The notes under the pieces were generated by a model. The model was not told the DNA's origin, did not search any database, and saw nothing but the letters and a program-made list of their open reading frames with translations. Source: Chthoniobacterales bacterium (GTDB taxonomy: Bacteria; Verrucomicrobiota; Verrucomicrobiia; Chthoniobacterales; UBA10450). Taken from it: a stretch of DNA of 32,470 nt. The stretch spans positions 1-32,470 of the forward strand of contig JACDCC010000303.1 of NCBI GenBank assembly GCA_013694595.1, in the 5' to 3' direction. A program made the translations under genes and the position numbers. Shown here piece after piece: positions 16,992-29,758 of this stretch (the first letter of the stretch is position 1; each line of letters begins with the position of its first letter).

Positions 16992-19820
16992 GTGTCGCAC
17001 TCCATGTCCAAGTCATTGATCATTGCTGAGAAGCCCAGCGTCGCCGCTGATCTGGCGAAAGCTCTTGGGAAGGTCCCGAAGAGCGGCGACCACTACGAGA
17101 ACGACCAATACGTCATCACGTCGGCTGTCGGTCACCTTGTGGAGCTCGAGATGCCCGAGGATATCGACAAGAAGAAGTACGGTTTCTGGCGCCTCGAGAC
17201 GCTCCCGATCATTCCGGAGAAGTTCGGCCTCAAGCCGATCGCCGACTCGAAAAGCCGCTACGATCAAATCAAAAAACTGCTCGCACGGAAAGACATCGAC
17301 GCAGTGGTAAACGCCTGCGACGCCGGCCGCGAAGGCGAGCTGATTTTCGACAACATTTACCGGCTGACGAAGTCGAAGCTGCCGGTCAAGCGCGCGTGGA
17401 TGCAGACGATGACCGCGGAAGGCATTCGTGAAGCCTTCAAGAAACTGCGCGACGGGGAGCAGATGGCAGGGCTATCGGATGCGGCGCGTTCGCGCAGCGA
17501 GAGCGATTGGTTGATCGGCATCAACGGAACCCGCGCGATCACGAAGCGCATGTTCGGTTCGCGCGGCAAGAACGTCGCGTCGGTCGGGCGTGTGCAAACG
17601 CCGACGCTCGCGATCGTTTTCGGGCGCGAGCTGGAGATTCGAAACTTCAAGCCGCGGCCCTATTGGCGCGTGACCGCGAAGTTCAAGATCGCGAAAGGCA
17701 CCTACGACGGCGTCTATCAGCGGCCGAATTTCAAGAAGGCGGAAAACGATGAGCATGATCGCATCGATCGCGTCTGGGATCGCACTCTCGCAGAAGCCGC
17801 CCTCGCGGCATGTCAGGGTCAACCACTCGCGAGCGTCACCGAAGAGAAGAAGTCATCGAGCCAGGCATCGCCCCGTCTCTATGATCTGACCACGTTGCAG
17901 CGCGAAGCGAACAACCGGTTCGGCCTGTCCGCGCGTCGCACCTTGCAAATTGCGCAGGCGCTTTACGAGCGGCACAAGGTCATCACCTACCCCCGAACCG
18001 ATTCCCGCGCCCTCCCGGAAGATTACATTGCGACCGTTCGCGAGACGCTCCAGAGCTTGCACGGCGATCTCGGTAAACACAGCCGCGCCGTTCTCGAGCA
18101 CGGCTGGGTGAAGCCGAACAAGCGCATCTTCAACAACGCGCAGATCTCCGACCACTTCGCGATCATCCCCACCACGACCGAGCCGAAGAACCTCGATGAG
18201 ATGGAAGGCAAGGTTTACGACATGATCGCCCGCCGGTTCGTCGCGACGTTCTTCCCCGCGGCCGAGTTCGACATCACGACACGCATCAGCACTGTCGCTT
18301 CCGCGCATCAATTCAAAACCGAAGGCAAAGTGCTCACGGCGCCTGGTTGGCTCGCGGTCTACGGCAAAACGACAGTCGACGACGGCGCGAGCGATTCGAA
18401 AGCTTTGCCGGCCCTGTCGCCCGCAGACAACGCGCAGGCGAAAACCATTTCCGCCGAGCTCCACGACGAGACCACGAAGCCGCCACCGCGTCACACGGAA
18501 GCGACGCTTCTCTCCGCGATGGAAGGCGCCGGCAAACTCGTGGACGACGAGAGCATGGCGGAAGCCATGAAAGAGCGCGGCCTCGGCACACCCGCGACGC
18601 GAGGCGAGATCCTCGAGAAATTGATCAAGGATCAATACATAGAGCGGAACCAACGCGAGCTGGTCCCCACCACGAAGGCCGAATCGCTGCTGCAATTTTT
18701 GGCTGCAGTCAAAGCGGACGCGCTCACGAAGCCCGACATGACCGGCGAATGGGAATACAAGCTGCGCCAGATGGAGCACGGCAAGTTCCAGCGCGACGCC
18801 TTCATGGACGAGATCAAGGAGGTCACTAAAGGCATCGTCGATCGCACCAAGAATTTCGAAGAAGACGACACCAACTCGCGCGAGACCGACATCATCTCAC
18901 CGAGCGACGGCAAGCCGCTCGTCGAAACGTTGCGGGGTTACAAATCGCAGGACGGCAAACTCATGATCTACAAGGTCATGAGTGGCAGAAAGATCGAGGA
19001 AGACGAAGTGCGCGAGCTCGTCGCGAACGGCGAGATCGGACCGCTCGATGGTTTCGTCTCCGCAAAGACGGGCAACCGTTTTCCTTCAAAGATCAAGATC
19101 GTCGATGACGAGAAAAATCCTGGCTCGAAAAAAGCCGAGCTCGATTTCGGAAACAAAGTCGACCTGAACGAGCTCACTCCCTTCTGGACGGATCCGAAAA
19201 CCGGCGCCGAGCTTTGCGAAGCGCCGACCAGCTACGTCCTGCGCCAAAAGGAAGGAGATGGCTGGAAAGAGATTTTCAAAGTTGGCCGTCTCATGTGCCA
19301 GAAACCCGTCACGCGCGAGCACGCCATTCAGCTGGTGGAACGCGGCAAGACCGATCTCATCGAAGCCTTCACCTCGAAGAAGGGCCGCCCATTCGACGCC
19401 TTCCTCGTCCGACAAGGTGCGAAGATCAACTGGGAATTCCCGCCGCGGAAGCCGCGGGAAGCGGGCGCAAAAGGCGCGAACGGCAATGGCCGCGCTCCAC
19501 GGAAACCGAAAGCGCCGCTCGACCTCTCGAAAGCCGTGAAGCTGAGCGAAAGCAAAGCGCACGACGGTGATCTCTATCAAACCGAGGATGCATTCGTCGT
19601 GGCAAAGCCGCAGGCCGATGGCTCCCCGCGAGTCGTCTTCGAGTTGAAGCGAAACCTTTGCGGAAAAGAGATCCCCGCCGAAGAAGCGGAGCGTCTCGTG
19701 GAAATGGGGAAAACGGGCCTAATCGAAGGCTTCGTTTCGAAACGCGGCTCAAATTTCGGCGCCTATCTAAAGCTCTCGAAGGACAAAAAGAAAGCCGAGT
19801 TCGAGTTTCCACCGCGGTAG
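16992..19820 (+). CDS. DNA topoisomerase IA family (topoisomerase III-like) with C-terminal repeat domains
   Basis: KSLIIAEKPSVAADLAKALGK (Toprim), ACDAGREGELIF, SVGRVQTPTLAIV, VITYPRTDSRALPEDY active-site Tyr region, plus repeated CTD motifs (LVERGKTDLIEAFTSKKGRPFDAFL / LVEMGKTGLIEGFVSKRGSNFGAYL). Confidence 0.93.
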   Translation: MSHSMSKSLIIAEKPSVAADLAKALGKVPKSGDHYENDQYVITSAVGHLVELEMPEDIDKKKYGFWRLETLPIIPEKFGLKPIADSKSRYDQIKKLLARKDIDAVVNACDAGREGELIFDNIYRLTKSKLPVKRAWMQTMTAEGIREAFKKLRDGEQMAGLSDAARSRSESDWLIGINGTRAITKRMFGSRGKNVASVGRVQTPTLAIVFGRELEIRNFKPRPYWRVTAKFKIAKGTYDGVYQRPNFKKAENDEHDRIDRVWDRTLAEAALAACQGQPLASVTEEKKSSSQASPRLYDLTTLQREANNRFGLSARRTLQIAQALYERHKVITYPRTDSRALPEDYIATVRETLQSLHGDLGKHSRAVLEHGWVKPNKRIFNNAQISDHFAIIPTTTEPKNLDEMEGKVYDMIARRFVATFFPAAEFDITTRISTVASAHQFKTEGKVLTAPGWLAVYGKTTVDDGASDSKALPALSPADNAQAKTISAELHDETTKPPPRHTEATLLSAMEGAGKLVDDESMAEAMKERGLGTPATRGEILEKLIKDQYIERNQRELVPTTKAESLLQFLAAVKADALTKPDMTGEWEYKLRQMEHGKFQRDAFMDEIKEVTKGIVDRTKNFEEDDTNSRETDIISPSDGKPLVETLRGYKSQDGKLMIYKVMSGRKIEEDEVRELVANGEIGPLDGFVSAKTGNRFPSKIKIVDDEKNPGSKKAELDFGNKVDLNELTPFWTDPKTGAELCEAPTSYVLRQKEGDGWKEIFKVGRLMCQKPVTREHAIQLVERGKTDLIEAFTSKKGRPFDAFLVRQGAKINWEFPPRKPREAGAKGANGNGRAPRKPKAPLDLSKAVKLSESKAHDGDLYQTEDAFVVAKPQADGSPRVVFELKRNLCGKEIPAEEAERLVEMGKTGLIEGFVSKRGSNFGAYLKLSKDKKKAEFEFPPR

Positions 19821-19992: not shown

Positions 19993-22299
19993 ATGAGCGA
20001 GTTCTACGCGCATACCGCTCCGGGTAATTGCTCGGATTGGGAGCCGCTTTTCACGGCTGAGTGCGCGGCCCTTGCCGGCGGCGAATGTGAAGCCTGCCAG
20101 AAACTCGAACCGCGACACGGCCACCTCAACAAGGTCGCGTGGTGGACGGCAAAATTTTCCGAAGCCGTGTTTCCCGCTGGGAGCGAGAACGCGAAAGCGG
20201 CGCGGGACTGGGGCTATCTCGCGGGCCTTTGGCATGATCTGGGGAAATTTGCGCCCGCGTGGCAGGTCTATCTCCGCTCCAAAGCGGATATGAACAGCGC
20301 GGAGATGGCGGGTCGTGTGGATCACGCCACTGCCGGCGCACAATATGCCGTCAGGGATGGGCATATCGTCGGACACTTGCTCGCTTACTCGATCGCTGGC
20401 CACCACTCCGGACTTCTGGATGCGATCTCACCCAATGCATGTCTCCAGAAGCGTTTCGAGAAAGACATCGCTGATTACGCGAACGCGCCGCGAGAAATTC
20501 TCGACCGCGCGATCCCGGAGCTGCCTCCGTCGATCGCACGCGATGTTCGGAATCCACTCGTCGCTGCCCTCTTCACGCGCCTGACCTTTTCGGCACTGAT
20601 CGATGCGGATTTCCTCGCGACGGAAGCCTTCATGGCACCAGAGCGCCGCACGCTTCGGCCGAAATTAAATGCGGCTCTGTTGCCACAAATGCTGGAGCTT
20701 CTGGAACAACACATCGCTGCTTTTCCCGCTCCGCAGAATGCAGTCGATCGCGCCCGCGCCGAGGTTCACGCGAGTTGCCGCGCGGCGGCTGAATTCGCGC
20801 CGGGATTTTTTTCGCTCACCGTCCCGACCGGTGGAGGCAAGACGCTCTCGTCGCTGGCGTTCGCGCTGCGCCACGCGATCAAACATGGGCAGCAGCGTGT
20901 GATCTACGTGATCCCGTTCACGTCCATCATCGACCAGAACGCGGCGGTCTTCGAAAGCGTCTTTAAGTCGCTCGCCGGATCGGATGCCGATCCGGTTGTC
21001 TTGCAGCATCACTCGAACTTGTCGCCTGAGAAGGAGACCACCCGCTCGCGCCTGGCCGCCGAGAATTGGGACGCGCCGCTCATCGTCACGACCGCAGTGC
21101 AATTTTATGAGTCTCTGCACGCCGCCCGCACGTCGAGCTGTCGCAAACTCCACCACATCGCAAACGCGGTTGTGATTTTCGACGAGGCTCAATGCCTCCC
21201 GGTTGAATATCTGCGGCCATGTCTGGACGTCTTGCGGGAACTGACGGCGCGCTACCACACGACCGCCGTGCTCTGCACCGCAACTCAACCAGCGATCGGG
21301 CAGAGCAGGGATTTTCCCATTGGCTTGGACGACGTTCGCGAAATCGTTCCGAATCCTTCGCAGCTCTACGACACCTTGCGACGCGTGGCGGTAGTGGATC
21401 GCGGCGCTTTGGACGATTATTCTCTGGCGAACGAACTCGCAGCGCGCGAGCAGGCGCTCGTCATCGTCAATACCCGCCGGCACGCGCAGGCGCTCTTTCG
21501 CTTGCTCCCGGAGAGCGATTCGAATTTCCATCTCTCCGCGCTTATGTGCCCCGCGCACCGAGCGGAAGTGCTATCCACGGTCCGCTGCCGTCTGGATAAC
21601 GATGTCCCCGTGCGCCTCATCTCCACGCAGCTGATCGAAGCCGGCGTCGATATCGATTTTCCCTGCGCTTACCGCGCGCTCGCCGGGATCGACTCGATCG
21701 CGCAGGCCGCCGGCCGCTGTAATCGAAATGGGCGCTGGCCCGGCAGCAAGCTCCACCTCTTCCGCTCCGAGCATCAACGCGCTGAAACCTATTTTCGCGA
21801 GACGGCGCAGATTGCGCGGCAAGTTCTCGCCTTGCACGAGGACCCGCTCGGCCTCGCGAGCGTGGCGCAGTTCTTCACCCTTTACTATTTGCAGCACAAT
21901 CCGCCGAACGGGGCGCGCTGGGACGCGAAGCAAATCTGCGACGACTACCGGTTGAACCAGGACCGGAAACTTCCGTTCGTCTTTCAATATCGAACGATCG
22001 CGGAAAAGTTCCGGCTGATCGAAAACGAACAGGTGCCGGTCCTCATCCCGTTCGATGAAACGGCCAAAGCTTTGTTAGCCCAGCTGCGGAACGAAGCGAT
22101 CCCTCTGCATCGTGCGCTCCTCCGCGGACTACAGCGCTACACGGTTCAGATTTACCGCTCTGAGTTCGCAAAGAATCGGGTTCAGTTCGAGTCCGTCCGC
22201 GACGAGCAGTTTCACATTCTCATCTGCCCGGAGACTCATTACTCTGCGCGCTTCGGTCTCCACCTGGATTCAGACAACGATAAGCCTCTCATCTGTTAA
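19993..22299 (+). CDS. cas3: CRISPR-associated helicase/nuclease Cas3 (type I-C)
   Basis: HD nuclease region (LAGLWHDLGKFAPAWQ, DHATAGAQ), Walker A PTGGGKTLSSLAFALRHA, DEAQCLP, QAAGRCNRNGRW. Confidence 0.96.
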   Translation: MSEFYAHTAPGNCSDWEPLFTAECAALAGGECEACQKLEPRHGHLNKVAWWTAKFSEAVFPAGSENAKAARDWGYLAGLWHDLGKFAPAWQVYLRSKADMNSAEMAGRVDHATAGAQYAVRDGHIVGHLLAYSIAGHHSGLLDAISPNACLQKRFEKDIADYANAPREILDRAIPELPPSIARDVRNPLVAALFTRLTFSALIDADFLATEAFMAPERRTLRPKLNAALLPQMLELLEQHIAAFPAPQNAVDRARAEVHASCRAAAEFAPGFFSLTVPTGGGKTLSSLAFALRHAIKHGQQRVIYVIPFTSIIDQNAAVFESVFKSLAGSDADPVVLQHHSNLSPEKETTRSRLAAENWDAPLIVTTAVQFYESLHAARTSSCRKLHHIANAVVIFDEAQCLPVEYLRPCLDVLRELTARYHTTAVLCTATQPAIGQSRDFPIGLDDVREIVPNPSQLYDTLRRVAVVDRGALDDYSLANELAAREQALVIVNTRRHAQALFRLLPESDSNFHLSALMCPAHRAEVLSTVRCRLDNDVPVRLISTQLIEAGVDIDFPCAYRALAGIDSIAQAAGRCNRNGRWPGSKLHLFRSEHQRAETYFRETAQIARQVLALHEDPLGLASVAQFFTLYYLQHNPPNGARWDAKQICDDYRLNQDRKLPFVFQYRTIAEKFRLIENEQVPVLIPFDETAKALLAQLRNEAIPLHRALLRGLQRYTVQIYRSEFAKNRVQFESVRDEQFHILICPETHYSARFGLHLDSDNDKPLIC

Positions 22300-22305
22300 C
22301 TGCCC

Positions 22306-23028
22306 ATGTCCTACGGAATTACTCTTGAGGTTTCCGGCGATTACGCCCTCTTCAGCCGCCCCGAAATGAAGGTCGAGCGCGTGAGCTATGACGTTATGAC
22401 TCCGTCCGCGGCGCGCGGGATTCTCGAGGCCATCTATTGGAAACCGCAGATCCGCTGGGTCATCGACCGGATTCACGTTCTCAATCCGATCCGCTTCACC
22501 AACATCCGGCGCAACGAGATCGACACCAAGATTCCCTTGGGCGGCAAATCGGGAGTCAACGCCGCGATGACCTCCGGCAAAGGAGAACTCGGCATTGCGG
22601 TCGATGCTCATCGTCAGCAACGCGCATCGCTTCTCTTGCGTGATGTCCGCTATCTGATCGATGCCCACTTCGACATCCTCGATCGCCGCTTCGAGAAAGA
22701 CGGCCCGGAGCTTTCCGAAAATGATGTCGCCGGAAAACACCTCGACATGTTTAACCGCCGCGCCCGTTCGGGTCAGGTGTTTCAGCAGCCATATTTTGGC
22801 TGCCGCGAGTTCCCGGTTCGATTCCACTTCGTCGAACCCGGCGCGGCCAGGCCCGAACCGCATGAAAGTCTGCGTGGCGAGCGCGATCTCGGATTCATGC
22901 TGCACGATATCGAGTTTCAGCAGGATGCACGGACGAAGAAAGTTAGCTCGACGACGCCGCATTTCTTCCGCGCGTTGATGAAGGGCGGTGTGATCGAGAT
23001 TCCGGTGCTGCGGCGGACCCACACCTGA
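22306..23028 (+). CDS. cas5c: CRISPR-associated protein Cas5c (Cas5d) pre-crRNA endonuclease/Cascade subunit
   Basis: [51 protein letters not shown]; position between cas3 and cas8c. Confidence 0.95.
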
Positions 23029-23029
23029 C

Positions 23030-24820
23030 ATGATCCTGCAATCTCTCTACGCTCTCTACGAACGTCTGGCCGACAACGAGGCCTATGACGTGGCAGAGCC
23101 GGGCTTTTCGCCGCAGAAGATTTCATTCCGCGTGGTCCTTCATCCCGATGGCTCGCTCTTCGCGATCGAAGACTCGCGCGTGCCCAACGATGCCGGCAAG
23201 CTGGTGTCGGCGCGCATGCGGGTCCCCGGTGAAGCGAAGTCTTCCGGCGCGGGAATCAATCCCGGACTTCTTTGGGATAACCAAACTTACCTCCTCGGGC
23301 GACAGCCGGATGACAAACCGGCTGGGTTCGGCCAGAAACGGTTCGAAGCTTTTCGTCAGCGGCACGTCGCGCTGGAACAGTCCGTCAATCAAGCGGCGTT
23401 CTCCGCTGTTTGCCGATTCCTGGAACAGTGGACGCCGGATCAGTTGCAAGCTCACCCGATCTTATCAGAAGTCGGGACAGGCTTCGGCGTCTTCCAAATT
23501 TTGGGTGAGCCAAAGCCGGTGCACGCCCTGCCAGCGATCCGCGATTGGTGGAAAAATAATCTGCCGAAGAGCGGGGATGTCATCGAGGGGCAATGCCTGC
23601 TCAGCGGCGAGGTGAGCGCCATCGCGCGTCTTCATCCTAAGATCAAGGGAGTCGCCGGAGCGCAGGCGGCGGGGGCCTCGCTCGTTTCGTTCAATGACTC
23701 GGCCTACGAATCGTACGGGAAGGAGCAGAGCTACAACAGTCCGGTCGGTGAAGATGCGGCGTTCCGATATGGCACCGCTTTGAATGCGCTGCTGAGCGGT
23801 CCTCAATCCTCGAAGCACCGGCTCCGCATTGGCGACACAACCTGCGTCTTCTGGACGGATACGAAAACCATTCTCGAAGACATCTTCGCCGCCATCGCCG
23901 GCAGTGGCGACCACGCCGCAGAGGAAACGCAGGATCACCAGGTGCGCGAGAAAGTCCATGCGTTCCTCAGCGCGCTGCAACAAGGTCGCGAGGTCTACGG
24001 CAATCTGGCCGACGATCCGGATGCGACCCGCTTCTATCTCCTCGGCCTGGCGCCCAACGCCGCCCGCCTCTCCGTCCGTTTCTTTTACCAATCGTCCATC
24101 CGCGAGCTGCTCGATCACCTCCGCCGCCACAAGGCCGACCTGGAGATCGTGCGCGAGTTCGAGCAACCGGTCGGCAAACGCCGCGCCGACTCGGAGTTCC
24201 CGGCTTATTGGGAGTTCCTGCGCGAAACTGTCCGGCAAGGCGACGACCCGCCCCCGCTGCTTGGCGGCGCGCTCATGCGAGCCATTCTCGAAAGCACGCC
24301 GTATCCAGAATCTCTGCTCACCGCCATCATCCGCCGCATCCAGATGGAGCGGTCGGTTAATTACCTCCGCGCCGCCGCGATCAAAGCCGTCCTCACGAGA
24401 AATCACCAACTCACCATCACCACCATGCTCGACTCAGAAAATAAACGACCCGCCTACCTCCTCGGACGTCTCTTCGCCGTGCTCGAGAAAATGCAGGAAG
24501 AAGGCCATCGCGAACAAACCGGCGGCCTGCTCGAAAAGACTATTCGCGACACCTACTTCGCCGCGGCGTGCGCGACACCTGCCAGTGTCTTCCCGCGCAT
24601 CGAGCAGCTCTCGACCCATCACCGCCGGCATCTCAATCCTGGCCGCAAAGTTCAATTCGATCAGCTCATCGGCGAGATTAAATGGCCGCAGTCTCCCGGC
24701 TCTGGCACCGCGAAGTCGCACAACCTTGAGGATCAGGGCCTTTTCATTCTCGGCTATTACCACCAGCGCAAAGACCTCTTTACCCGCAAAGAAAAACCAA
24801 TCGAAGCCGCCGCTGCCTAG
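23030..24820 (+). CDS. cas8c: CRISPR-associated protein Cas8c (Csd1)
   Basis: 596 aa; Csd1-like features ([63 protein letters not shown]). Confidence 0.95.
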
Positions 24821-24848
24821 CGCACAACGCTCCACTCACCGCCACACC

Positions 24849-25691
24849 ATGAAAAATCGCTACGACTTTATCCTTCTCTTCGACGCCCAGGACGCCAACC
24901 CGAATGGCGACCCCGACGCCGGTAACCTCCCGCGCCTTGATGCGGAATCAGGCCAAGGCCTCGTCACGGATGTTTGCCTGAAACGGAAAGTTCGGAACTT
25001 CATCCAAACTGCGCATCCCGATCAGCGCATCTACTTCACCGAGGGCGCCGTCCACAATCAGCAGCACGCCGAGGCCTACAAAGCGCTCGATCTCGGCGAT
25101 GCCAAGAAGGGCAAAGCCGCTGAGCGGGACAAAGCGAAAGCCTGGATGTGCCAAAACTTCTACGACATCCGAACTTTTGGTGCGGTCATGTCCACGGAAG
25201 TGAATTGCGGACAGGTCCGCGGCCCGGTCCAACTCTCCTTCGCGCGCTCGATCGATCCCATCGTCTCCAGCGAACACGCGATTACCCGCACTTCGGTCAC
25301 GAACGAAAAGGACATCGAGAAAGGGCGGACGATGGGCCGCAAATTCACGATCCCTTACGGCCTCTACCGCGCGCACGGATTTGTGAATCCCTATCTGGCC
25401 GAGCAGACCGGCTTCTCCGACGACGATTTGGAGTTGTTCTTCACCGCCGTTGAGAATGCCTTCCAGTTTGACCAATCCGCCGCGCGTCCAGCCGGTTCCA
25501 TGGCTGTCCGCAGTCTTCTCGTTTTCAAGCACGACAACCAGCTCGGCAAGGCTCCCAGCCATGCGCTCTTCGATCTTGTCCGAGTGCAGCGGACGGACGA
25601 GAGCAAAGCTGCCCGCGCCTTTTCCGACTACACGGTTTCGGTTGATGAAGCCGCCGTGCCTGAAGGCGTCACCCTCATCCGCCGCATCTGA
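24849..25691 (+). CDS. cas7c: CRISPR-associated protein Cas7c (Csd2)
   Basis: [51 protein letters not shown]...; [32 protein letters not shown]. Confidence 0.95.
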
Positions 25692-25698
25692 GCGCCGT

Positions 25699-26235
25699 GT
25701 GAATGGTCTTTACGAGCTGGCTGATCGCGCGCGCCGGGAGAAGCTGCCATTTCTCGTCGTCGGCGGGCATGCGGTGATTTTGTATCATGTCCCACGCTTT
25801 ACCCGAGACATCGATCTTCTCATTCCGGAAAGCGCCGCCACTGCGTGGCTGGAATTTCTGCAAAAGTTCCGCTATCGCGTCTATCACCAAACGGAGGCGT
25901 TCATTCAGTTGGAGCCTTTCGAGCCGGGAACGTTGCCGCCGGTAGATTTGATGCTGGTGGACGCGGGCACATGGGCCAAGCTCGAGGCCAAAGCAGTGGA
26001 GCGGGAAGCCGGTGGCGATCTGCGGCTGCCAGTGCCTCATGTCTGGCATCTCATCGCCATGAAGCTGGCCGCCGCGCAGTCGATCCAGCGGCGAAAAGAG
26101 GCTTCTGATTGGCCCGATGTTCTTCATTTGGTGCGGGTTTGCCAGATCGATCTGGCGAACCCTGACTTCCGGAGCATGGTCATGCAATATGGGGGAAAGG
26201 AAGCCCTGCGCCGTCTCGAGAAGGAGGCATCGTGA
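25699..26235 (+). CDS. AbiEii-like/DUF6036-like nucleotidyltransferase embedded in cas operon
   Basis: GTG start 8 nt after the cas7 stop; VNGLYELADRARREKLPFLVVGGHAVILYHVPRFTRDIDLLIPE... VDLMLVDAG: minimal NTase signature GG-x(n)-DxD plus a later Asp; C-terminal HLIAMKLAAAQSIQRRKEASDWPDVLHLV. Confidence 0.8.
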   Translation: MNGLYELADRARREKLPFLVVGGHAVILYHVPRFTRDIDLLIPESAATAWLEFLQKFRYRVYHQTEAFIQLEPFEPGTLPPVDLMLVDAGTWAKLEAKAVEREAGGDLRLPVPHVWHLIAMKLAAAQSIQRRKEASDWPDVLHLVRVCQIDLANPDFRSMVMQYGGKEALRRLEKEAS

Positions 26236-26438
26236 AAACTGACCACGCGCACTCCGTCTGGGACATCCGCCTGCCTGAACCAGCCGCGCCCTTGTCCCGA
26301 AGCCATCTTCGGCAGCCGCCCACGTGGCAACAATTTCTTCGCGAAACACAGGAGCCATGGGCCCGCTACATGCGAGAACATGATTCGCCGGAGGAGCGCC
26401 TCGCCGCCAAGCATCCTGCCCGGTTCGTTCTGAGCTGA
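26232..26438 (+). CDS. 68-aa hypothetical protein, translationally coupled to the nucleotidyltransferase
   Basis: GTGA overlap with the upstream NTase stop; MKTDHAHSVWDIRLPEPAAPLSRSHLRQPPTWQQFLRETQEPWARYMREHDSPEERLAAKHPARFVLS; ends 16 nt before cas4. Confidence 0.6.
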   Translation: MKTDHAHSVWDIRLPEPAAPLSRSHLRQPPTWQQFLRETQEPWARYMREHDSPEERLAAKHPARFVLS

Positions 26439-26454: not shown

Positions 26455-27090
26455 GTGACGACGGAGCCTGCGCACGATGAGTCTTCGCTCCTCCCGCTCT
26501 CCGCCCTGCAGCATCTGCTTTTTTGCGAGCGGCAGTGCGCGCTGATTCACATCGAGCAGGTCTGGACGGACAACCAGTTCACCGCTGAAGGAAATCTTCT
26601 GCACGAACGCACCCATGAAGGTCCGGATGAATCGCGCCCCGGTGTGCGCATCGCGCGCGGGATGCCGGTGCGCTCGCTCCAGCTCGGGTTGAGCGGACAG
26701 TGCGATGTTGTCGAGTTTCACCCTGACAGAGCCGTCCTGCCGGTGGAATACAAACGCGGCAAACCCAAGGCGCATGCGGCGGATGAAGTCCAGCTTTGCG
26801 CCGAGGCGATCTGCCTCGAGGAGATGCTGGGCGTTCGCATCGAGCGCGGAATGCTCTACTACGGCAAGCGTCGCCGCCGCACCGACGTCGTTCTCAATCC
26901 TGCGTTACGTGAACTGACGCGCGATGCGGCGCGGCGCCTGCACGTGTTGATTGAATCGCGGATCACGCCGATGGCACAGCGTGAGAAGAAATGTGAAAGC
27001 TGCTCACTGCTCGAGATCTGCATGCCGGACGCGCTGCGGTTGCGCAAAGGCGTGGCGAGCTGGTTCGCCGCCCAGCTGAGAGTTCAATGA
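26455..27090 (+). CDS. cas4: CRISPR-associated exonuclease Cas4
   Basis: FCERQCALIHIEQVW, LPVEYKRGKPKAHAADEVQLCAEAICLEEM, Fe-S cysteines CESCSLLEICMP; GTG start. Confidence 0.93.
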   Translation: MTTEPAHDESSLLPLSALQHLLFCERQCALIHIEQVWTDNQFTAEGNLLHERTHEGPDESRPGVRIARGMPVRSLQLGLSGQCDVVEFHPDRAVLPVEYKRGKPKAHAADEVQLCAEAICLEEMLGVRIERGMLYYGKRRRRTDVVLNPALRELTRDAARRLHVLIESRITPMAQREKKCESCSLLEICMPDALRLRKGVASWFAAQLRVQ

Positions 27091-27227
27091 GCGCCACTGA
27101 TTCGAGCGCGAGCACGAGTACCAGCACGAGCCTGCTTCAGTTCGGCGTTCGATGTTGGACCCATTCGGCTGTCGCTCAGGGCAGGCTGTTGAGCGTTAGA
27201 CGTTTGCTCTCTCTGCCTGCGTCATGA
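27087..27227 (+). CDS. Possible 46-aa small ORF between cas4 and cas1
   Basis: ATGA overlap with cas4 stop and TGA overlapping the cas1 start: MSATDSSASTSTSTSLLQFGVRCWTHSAVAQGRLLSVRRLLSLPAS. Low complexity at the start; coding status uncertain. Confidence 0.25.
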   Translation: MSATDSSASTSTSTSLLQFGVRCWTHSAVAQGRLLSVRRLLSLPAS

Positions 27228-28258
27228 TGCAGCATCTCAACACCCTCTTTGTCACCCTGGAGGGCGCGTGGCTTTTCAAGGACGGGCAAGCCGTCGAAGT
27301 GCGCCACGACGGGCAGACGAACCTGCGCGTCCCGCTCCATAATCTCGATGGCATCGTCTGTCTCGGCTGGGATATCGGTGCTACCGTGCAATTAATGGCC
27401 GCCTGCGCGGAGGCCGGCGTGACGCTCTCCTTTTGTTCGCCACACGGAAAATTCCTCGCCGCCGCCACCGGATTCGCTTCCGGCAACGTCCTCCTCCGGC
27501 GCACCCAATATCGGCTCGCCGACGATGACGCAGCCTGCGCCGGCATCGCTCGCCAAATCGTGGCGGCAAAGATCTCCAACTCCCGCGTCTCTCTCCTGCG
27601 CGCCGCGCGCGATCACCCCGACGAGCCGGCTGCGGCGCAGTTCGGCTCAGCCGCGCAATGGCTCGGGCACCGGATCGATGCCGTCATGCGCGAGTCCTCC
27701 CTGGATATCATCCGCGGGATCGAAGGAGATTCTGCTGCGGCCTACTTCGACTGCATGCCGTCATTGCTGACGACAAACGACCCGACACTACGAATGAACG
27801 GCCGCAGCCGACGTCCGCCGCTCGATCCGGTGAACGCGCTCCTCTCCTTTCTCTACGCGCTGCTGAATCATGACTGCCGCTCCGCCCTGGCGGCGTGTGG
27901 TCTCGACCCTGCGGTAGGCTTTCTCCATCGTGACCGCCCCGGCCGGGCCTCGCTCGCGCTTGACCTCATGGAGGAGTTTCGTCCGGTGCTGGCGGACCGT
28001 CTCGCTCTCTCGCTCCTCAATCGAAAGCAACTCGATGGCGCCGATTTCAATCGCCAGGAAAACGGCGCCGTCGCGTTGCGCGAGGCTTCCCGCAAGAAAG
28101 TGCTCGTCGCCTGGCAGGAGCGAAAACGCGAGGAACTCATCCATCCGTTCCTGCAGGAGAAGGTGCCTTGGGGCATCGTGCCTCACCTGCAGGCACGGTT
28201 GCTCGCCCGCCACCTCCGCGGCGACCTCGACGCCTACCCCGCGTTTCTCTGGAAGTAG
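27224..28258 (+). CDS. cas1: CRISPR-associated integrase Cas1 (type I-C)
   Basis: MMQHLNTLFVTLEGAWLFKDGQAVEVRHDGQTNLRVPLHNLDGIVCLG; VNALLSFLYALLNHDCRSALAACGLDPAVGFLHRDRPGRASLALDLMEEFRP. Confidence 0.96.
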   Translation: MMQHLNTLFVTLEGAWLFKDGQAVEVRHDGQTNLRVPLHNLDGIVCLGWDIGATVQLMAACAEAGVTLSFCSPHGKFLAAATGFASGNVLLRRTQYRLADDDAACAGIARQIVAAKISNSRVSLLRAARDHPDEPAAAQFGSAAQWLGHRIDAVMRESSLDIIRGIEGDSAAAYFDCMPSLLTTNDPTLRMNGRSRRPPLDPVNALLSFLYALLNHDCRSALAACGLDPAVGFLHRDRPGRASLALDLMEEFRPVLADRLALSLLNRKQLDGADFNRQENGAVALREASRKKVLVAWQERKREELIHPFLQEKVPWGIVPHLQARLLARHLRGDLDAYPAFLWK

Positions 28259-28287: not shown

Positions 28288-28578
28288 ATGCAAGTGCTCA
28301 TCACATACGATGTCTCCACCGTCACTGCCGATGGCCGGCGCCGGCTCCGTCGCGCCGCTAAAACATGCCTCGACCACGGGCAGCGCGTTCAGAACTCCGT
28401 CTTCGAATGTCTGGTCAATCCCGGCGAGCTGGTCACCGTTCGTGCGCGCCTGCTTAAGATCATCAATCCGGAGACTGACAGCCTGCGGATCTATATGCTG
28501 GGCAGCGATTGGGATCATCGGGTGGAGCATCACGGCGCGAAACCGTCGTTCGATCCCACCGGGCCGCTCGTTGTGTAG
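28288..28578 (+). CDS. cas2: CRISPR-associated endonuclease Cas2
   Basis: MQVLITYDVSTVTADGRRRLRRAAKTCLDHGQRVQNSVFECLVNPGE...LRIYMLG. Confidence 0.96.
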   Translation: MQVLITYDVSTVTADGRRRLRRAAKTCLDHGQRVQNSVFECLVNPGELVTVRARLLKIINPETDSLRIYMLGSDWDHRVEHHGAKPSFDPTGPLVV

Positions 28579-28772: not shown

Positions 28773-29069
28773 GTCGCGCTCCGCAGGAGCGCGCGGATTG
28801 AAACGCGTTTGCGCTGGACGAGAATGACGAGAATCACGGGTCGCGCTCCGCAGGAGCGCGCGGATTGAAACATGTCGCAGGCGCACCATCCGACCAGACG
28901 AAAAGGTCGCGCTCCGCAGGAGCGCGCGGATTGAAACCGGTGCGACGGGGTGGTCCCGCCCCAAGCGTGATGTCGCGCTCCGCAGGAGCGCGCGGATTGA
29001 AACGATCGCGAAGAAGCTGAATTGTCATTATCGAACGGTCGCGCTCCGCAGGAGCGCGCGGATTGAAAC
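28773..29069 (+). CRISPR. Type I-C CRISPR array, 5 repeats / 4 spacers
   Basis: 32-bp repeat GTCGCGCTCCGCAGGAGCGCGCGGATTGAAAC at 28773, 28840, 28906, 28972, 29038, all identical; spacers 35, 34, 34, 34 nt. Confidence 0.98.
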
Positions 29070-29248: not shown

Positions 29249-29758
29249 ATGCGTTGTCCTAAGTGCGGGTTTCGTGACGACAAGGTCATCGACTCGCGCC
29301 AGTCTCGTGATAGCTCCAGCATCCGTCGCCGTCGCGTCTGTTTGCAGTGCTCCTACCGCTTCACGACCTACGAGGAGATCGAGCGCTCGGAGTTGCGTGT
29401 CATCAAGCGTGACCGGACGCACGAACAATTCGATCGGCGCAAGCTGGTGAATAGCCTCGCCAAAGCTTGCGAGAAGCGGCCGATCAGCCTCGTGGTTCTC
29501 GAACAGGCCGTGGATGAAATTGTGCACGAGCTCGAGACCAGCGGACGTGAAGTGCAGTCGACCGCCATCGGCACCAAGGTGCTCGAGAAATTGAAGGACA
29601 TCGACGAGGTGGCGTATCTCCGTTACGCGTCGGTTCATCGCCGTTTTGAAGGAGTGGATCAATTTGTCGAGGCGGTGCAGGCGCTCGGCAAGCGAATCAA
29701 ATCGAACCCATCGCAGCGGGAGCTGTTCCCGCCCGAGGTCGCCCATGGTAGCGTTTAA
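29249..29758 (+). CDS. nrdR: Transcriptional regulator NrdR
   Basis: MRCPKCGFRDDKVIDSRQSRDSSSIRRRRVCLQCSYRFTTYEEIE (zinc ribbon) and ATP-cone domain. Confidence 0.96.
   Translation: MRCPKCGFRDDKVIDSRQSRDSSSIRRRRVCLQCSYRFTTYEEIERSELRVIKRDRTHEQFDRRKLVNSLAKACEKRPISLVVLEQAVDEIVHELETSGREVQSTAIGTKVLEKLKDIDEVAYLRYASVHRRFEGVDQFVEAVQALGKRIKSNPSQRELFPPEVAHGSV

Follow-up and report, generated by a model that had tools for sequence, protein, structure and literature searches.

A MenT-class toxin-antitoxin-like gene pair in a candidate cargo slot between cas7 and cas4 of type I-C CRISPR-Cas operons

The window considered here, 32,470 nucleotides of a Chthoniobacterales bacterium (Verrucomicrobiota; GenBank assembly GCA_013694595.1, contig JACDCC010000303.1), contains a complete type I-C CRISPR-Cas operon in which two additional genes, encoding a nucleotidyltransferase of 178 residues (NT) and a small protein of 68 residues (S), lie between the final effector gene, cas7, and the first adaptation gene, cas4. 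The explanation that we favour, and hold to be rather probable, is that NT-S is a toxin-antitoxin-like cassette of the MenT class that occupies an exchangeable slot at the cas7-cas4 joint, where it would most likely act as a back-up module. All seven cas genes and a five-repeat array are present, in the order cas3, cas5c, cas8c, cas7c, NT, S, cas4, cas1c, cas2 and array, with every gene of the operon, NT and S included, on the forward strand. Profile matches to Cas3, Cas5c, Cas8c/Csd1, Cas7/Csd2, Cas4, Cas1c and Cas2 bear out the original prediction that the pair is embedded in a cas operon. Its account of the pair itself was also accurate in coordinates and motifs, including the GTG start of NT 8 nt past the last base of the cas7 stop codon, the GTGA overlap of NT with S and the 16 nt between S and cas4.

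NT carries the motifs VVGGHAV, RFTRDIDLLIP and PVDLMLVD and scores 34.7 bits against the Pfam AbiEii family (PF08843; cut-off 22.5). A single-sequence search of the PDB recovered one relative only, the Mycobacterium tuberculosis enzyme MenT1 (8an4, E 2e-7), and a profile of 31 family members raised this match to 5.5e-12. MenT1 was likewise the top PDB match (8an4/8an5, E 3.5e-11, probability 1.00, template modelling score 0.70) in a fold search with an AlphaFold2 model of NT (mean predicted local distance difference test score, 94). Identity between the two proteins is about 26%. MenT1 residues R37, T39, D41, K137 and D152, which have been shown to matter for that enzyme (PMC10435456, PMC11375011), correspond to R33, T35, D37, K122 and D137 of NT, all invariant across the 31-row alignment; T35, D37, D39, D83, K122 and D137 are invariant in the family alignment. 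The ratio of non-synonymous to synonymous substitution rates (dN/dS) is 0.09-0.28 in closely related NT pairs. Judged by its sequence and its predicted structure, NT is thus a MenT1/AbiEii-class nucleotidyltransferase with intact active-site residues. The label of AbiEii- or MNT-type enzyme given to it previously therefore holds in its first half; MNT is less apt, as a Pfam scan found no match to PF01909 in NT.

S matches no family in Pfam or the other profile libraries searched and represents an uncharacterised family of small proteins. Behind nearly all full-length relatives of NT lies a small open reading frame (ORF), overlapping or adjoining, of approximately 58-89 codons; the products share an N-terminal LP motif and, in most members, a C-terminal (R/P/E)F-x-(L/M) motif; S of the window has the LP motif and a C-terminal RF.L motif. 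Its model comprises a flexible N-terminus followed by a longer helix (residues 32-50) and a shorter one (53-60). Selection was measured on relatives, the window's own S being too diverged for dN/dS: among 13 close pairs, of which 12 were computable, the ratio outside the overlap is 0.05-0.19 in ten, 0.27 in one and 0.71 in one. S is therefore considered a constrained protein and not a chance reading frame and, because the S family accompanies nearly every NT relative and is under purifying selection, NT-S is a conserved pair, probably a toxin-antitoxin. This agrees with the earlier suggestion of a two-component system and, on the relatives, with what is expected generally of toxin-antitoxin modules, namely a small partner that is co-inherited and selected as a protein.

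Relatives of NT occur in 38 of the 388 genomes of the phylum and in 46 loci, overwhelmingly of Verrucomicrobiota, of the GTDB contig collection; the two sets overlap, and the collection was scanned with a 3-row NT alignment, a 6-row alignment being too diverged. Five NT genes are linked to cas genes, and every one of them lies upstream of cas4 with no cas gene between, in two different I-C architectures, so that the pair does recur between effector genes and cas4, as the original prediction had asked. In loci L130 and L149, the order is cas5-cas8-cas7-cas3-NT-S-cas4-cas1-cas2, with a divergent Cas8c (PDLC01562, E ~1e-111 or better), whereas L148 (= G151) reads cas7-NT-S-...-MazF-...-cas4, with MazEF between S and cas4. 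Similar stretches flank the MazF cassette of the G151 operon (L005:272-440 and 1225-1367, the same locus as L033/L148); both include the end of the S gene, encoding ..RARMNPEPFVL, and the arrangement resembles an insertion accompanied by duplication. In L131, NT-S-cas4 is preceded by an ORF of 304 codons (L131:158-1072), at the upstream edge of the contig, that has no NCBIfam or PADLOC match and is possibly a further slot gene. On the cas7 contig of the same genome, which could not be joined to the L131 contig, cas7 is followed by an unknown gene also found in L078 and, towards the contig end, by RHH-like and PIN-like ORFs (L176:2210-3329); the slot of this genome may contain a series of modules. 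At least two separate associations with cas genes are needed to explain the NT tree. Searches of phage, plasmid and IMG/VR collections found no NT relative, and recent phage or plasmid cargo was rejected on this ground.

In the I-C operons of the 388 genomes, with an insert defined as a gap of at least 250 nt, 43 of 66 loci in which cas4 follows cas7 contain an insert at this joint, in comparison with 0/23 and 0/40 for cas8-cas7, 0/42 for cas1-cas2, 7/55 for cas4-cas1, 3/39 for cas3-cas5 and 2/39 for cas5-cas8. The other joints are thus insert-bearing in 0-13% of cases (Fisher p for cas7-cas4 against them, 8e-9 to 2e-13, for loci that are related to one another and an upstream-joint set drawn mostly from operons with inserts). 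The slot is empty in about one-third of operons. Outside the phylum, 6 of 34 cas7-cas4 joints bear inserts (Pseudomonadota 4/18, Acidobacteriota 0/4, Planctomycetota 2/12; gap counts less certain). These sequence comparisons suggest that the cas7-cas4 joint is a preferred, exchangeable cargo slot of I-C operons in Verrucomicrobiota in the GTDB sense. The rarer inserts between cas4 and cas1 (L071, L078, L082, L083, L090, L092 and L120) form a second slot, containing four-helix-bundle genes or a Phd-PIN pair. In a further group of loci (L080, L081, L084, L085, L101-L103, L105, L106, L109 and L111), from several genomes that all belong to one family of the window's class, none of cas4, cas1 and cas2 was recognised in the roughly 5 kb that follow cas7/csd2.

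The commonest single occupant is a HEAT-CxxC-PDDEXK nuclease (11 operons), and two four-helix-bundle families account for about ten operons. BRO-N occurs in four, and as a second gene in one more, ORF6N and Fic in three each, and NT-S, MazF (once together with NT-S) and PIN, either with an RHH-like partner or as a PIN-like gene alone, in two each. A pair of genuine PF01909 nucleotidyltransferases (MNT) fills the slot of L104, and DUF4160 and DUF2442 proteins, RhuM and several orphans are also found; three short gaps (L053, L054 and L074) may be non-coding. Because the slot holds so many unrelated cassettes, NT-S is to be regarded as one of many occupants, and the interpretation offered in the original prediction is supported in part, within a larger pattern of a variable slot. 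Relatives of the HEAT nuclease (L065:2430-3296 and kin) are present in 61 of 376 genomes of the phylum, around ten of them at the I-C slot and some adjoining cas3. A small protein family occurs beside larger occupants in four slots (L058, L062, L069 and L120), with no Pfam match for the member tested (L062). In the libraries tried, no known family was matched by the L092 protein, the L078/L176 family, the L058/L062/L120 small protein or the L131 ORF. In Pseudomonadota, a ParE-type toxin and Unstab_antitox lie exactly between cas7 and cas4 in L184 and L185, as they do, by similarity to these, in L180.

Cassettes are fitted to the joint with precision. L065 and L067 share 92% DNA identity through cas8 and cas7 until 4 nt short of the cas7 stop, and from the third base of cas4 they are similar again, at 81%; between these borders one has the HEAT nuclease and the other a four-helix-bundle gene. 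The pairs L121/L128 and L066/L076 show the same clean swap. The window and the empty operon L088, in which the gap is 7 nt, are alike until 4 nt upstream of the cas7 stop codon and again from 20 nt inside cas4. In 38 of 50 inserts the last ORF ends no more than 30 nt from a cas4 start codon in frame, and in 26 it overlaps that start; both figures are somewhat optimistic, because the closest start codon was used in each case. Mapped onto the cas7 tree, occupants change 31 times (shuffled mean, 32.7), which is close to random; on the cas1 tree they change 18 times (shuffled mean, 20.1) and show a weak structure. The clean borders and this near-randomness together argue for frequent, precise replacement of cassettes. 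Inheritance of the cassette with the effector was rejected, since the distribution of occupants over the cas7 tree is almost random and their clustering on that of cas1 only slight. The adaptation genes of L149 (L149:2889-12058) are 64-66% identical to those of the window (cas1, 65%) and its effector is far removed (cas7, 24%); this coupling of window-like adaptation genes to a very different effector shows exchange of modules at the joint that hosts the cassettes.

By analogy with MenT1, which attaches cytidine monophosphate to tRNA 3' ends (PMC10435456, PMC11375011), NT would add nucleotides to the 3' ends of tRNA and so stall translation. In this two-gene cassette of reverse order, toxin first, S would be translated from the overlapping GTGA and would bind and neutralise NT, much as MenA1 inhibits MenT1 through binding and induced auto-phosphorylation at T39 (PMC10435456, PMC11375011), possibly through the conserved phospho-acceptor T35. 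Cassettes at the slot run on the cas strand, are set exactly between the cas7 stop and the cas4 start and in most cases adjoin cas4; because of this fit they are presumably transcribed with the effector genes. The most likely benefit would be that a growth-arrest or nuclease module co-expressed with immunity serves as a back-up should interference fail or the operon be silenced or lost. It speaks for a functional role that toxin and nuclease families with no relation to one another have converged on a single joint, that they keep precisely to gene boundaries and that they are fitted to cas4. A stronger proposal, that the effector/adaptation joint is a dedicated, selectively maintained slot into which I-C systems swap toxin or nuclease back-up modules, NT-S among them, acting with the CRISPR response, is conceivable, although we lean against it. 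If true, a swappable slot for protein cassettes in a compact type I operon would provide many natural replicates of immunity-suicide coupling at one fixed position. Near-identical operons differ only in their cassette, which makes the contribution of each directly testable. In practical terms, the slot also offers a site at which to seek new defence or toxin genes.

Several observations weigh against the back-up reading. The toxicity of NT, the antidote activity of S and their coupling to immunity are predictions from sequence; no internal promoter or terminator above background was found around NT-S within the operon, and no regulatory link was seen; S shows no relation to MenA1 by sequence, profile or fold search and lies downstream of its toxin where MenA1 lies upstream; and the four-helix-bundle, BRO and ORF6N occupants are not proven toxins. 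S as a homologue of MenA1 was rejected for want of a profile or fold match. Furthermore, approximately 75 of 80 NT-S loci are without cas linkage, which means that NT-S is not a dedicated cas gene and that no CRISPR-specific role is required. This last point also sustains the main and close rival, that the joint is simply where additional genes are least harmful and that NT-S is a selfish, hitch-hiking toxin-antitoxin module without a role in CRISPR immunity, to which we assign a probability somewhat below even. Under it, the mostly non-cas location of the NT-S and HEAT-nuclease families, the diversity and fast turnover of occupants and the many empty slots are readily understood, and the movement of adaptation modules between effectors, as in L149, would make the joint a recombination point as well. 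However, the cas1-cas2 and cas4-cas1 joints should then be about as tolerant, yet 0/42 and 7/55 carry inserts, and neither the fitting of most cassettes to the cas4 start codon on the cas strand nor the convergence of unrelated toxin and nuclease families is expected of it. In the original prediction the pair was to count as a random insertion if it never recurred in cas operons; it does recur in them, although most loci of the family are unlinked.

An addiction guard, in which S is no longer made once the cas operon is lost or silenced and NT is freed to arrest or kill the cell, resembles the CreTA module with a protein antitoxin in place of RNA, and appears rather unlikely. The genes are co-directional, with no promoter or terminator clearly over background between them, and toxin-antitoxin families recur at the slot (NT-S, PIN/RHH, MazF/DUF2281 and ParE/Unstab_antitox), but operons persist with the slot empty and many occupants consist of one gene with no antitoxin in evidence. 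The CreTA analogy proposed earlier fails in its RNA form: no degenerate CRISPR repeat was found in the 32 kb beyond the five of the array, allowing up to 11 mismatches in 32, nor any CRISPR-like antitoxin RNA in the window, and a CreTA-like RNA guard was rejected. Modulation of Cas4-Cas1-Cas2 by NT-S, via expression coupling or modification of RNA or protein ends, is improbable; NT-S is always directly upstream of cas4 in both I-C architectures and inserts overlap or abut the cas4 start, but the occupants have no common biochemistry, NT relatives exist without cas genes and nothing suggests a physical link to Cas4. That NT acts on small molecules or drugs, and not as a tRNA-directed toxin, seems highly improbable: aminoglycoside adenylyltransferases show a weak, sub-threshold likeness (PF10706, E 0.018) and ANT(2'')-Ia is among the fold matches, yet sequence and fold searches both clearly place MenT1 first, the small partner gene is invariant and NT has the MenT-type R-x-T-x-D-x-D motif. 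The features of the operon and its flanks are given in Table 1.

Table 1. Features of the type I-C operon and its flanks, in positions of the window
Feature	Position	Strand	Basis or detail
Type I topoisomerase-like gene, flanks operon	16992-19820		Name read from translation only
cas3 (HD + helicase)	19993-22299	+	Profile searches
cas5c	22306-23028	+	TIGR01876 3e-58
cas8c/csd1	23030-24820	+	TIGR01863 3e-137
cas7c/csd2, final effector gene	24837-25691	+	TIGR02589 7e-111; stop codon 25689-25691
NT, 178-residue nucleotidyltransferase, MenT1/AbiEii class, predicted toxin	25699-26235	+	PF08843 2.4e-8; GTG start 25699
S, 68-residue small partner, predicted antitoxin	26232-26438	+	Conservation behind NT homologues, purifying selection, model
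cas4, first adaptation gene	26455-27090	+	GTG start; PF01930 1.5e-26, TIGR00372 1.7e-38
cas1c	27224-28258	+	TIGR03640 2.8e-145
cas2	28288-28578	+	TIGR01573 1.5e-17
CRISPR array, 5 identical 32-nt repeats GTCGCGCTCCGCAGGAGCGCGCGGATTGAAAC	28773-29069	+	Repeat search
nrdR-like gene, flanks operon	29249-29758		Name read from translation only

A link between CRISPR immunity and suicide or dormancy was proposed by Makarova et al. 2012 (PMC3506569), with toxin-like genes mostly near type III loci and with Cas2 and Cas4 considered potential toxins, and has been shown for RNA modules, namely CreTA, an RNA toxin-antitoxin that guards CRISPR-Cas (PMC9458426). The literature searched contained nothing on genes between cas7 and cas4 and no such slot, within a reach that excludes subscription papers such as Shmakov et al. 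2018, where a prior mention is possible. To the extent of this check, neither the slot in its entirety nor the NT-S family appears to have been described, although individual occupants have already been noticed, since PADLOC holds a model for HEAT_CxxC_PD-DEXK. This catalogued, defence-related gene (PDLC01150) shares the slot with NT-S as its commonest occupant; it encodes an unrelated nuclease, and nothing in the literature searched places it among many exchangeable occupants.

Among characterised systems, MenAT1 of M. tuberculosis is the closest to NT-S, in its nucleotidyltransferase fold, catalytic residues, two-gene organisation and partner of 68 residues. S and MenA1 are both helical, each with one longer and one shorter helix, a likeness of outline only, with no homology detected. 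NT-S differs in gene order, in a partner unrelated in sequence, in the low identity of the nucleotidyltransferases and in its location inside a cas operon. The type IV system AbiE (AbiEi/AbiEii) has the PF08843 toxin domain in common with NT, but NT-S has no AbiEi-type winged-helix antitoxin, S being short and without a recognisable DNA-binding domain, and its neighbours are cas genes. MNT-HEPN (type VII) embodies the same idea of a nucleotidyltransferase with a small partner; NT-S, however, lacks both a HEPN partner and a PF01909 domain, and S matches no family. CreTA (PMC9458426) is likewise a toxin module physically within a CRISPR-Cas locus, from which NT-S is distinguished by its protein partner, the absence of an ectopic repeat and its place inside the operon. 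From the canonical type I-C operon, all of whose cas genes the window has in canonical order, it differs by the cassette between cas7 and cas4.
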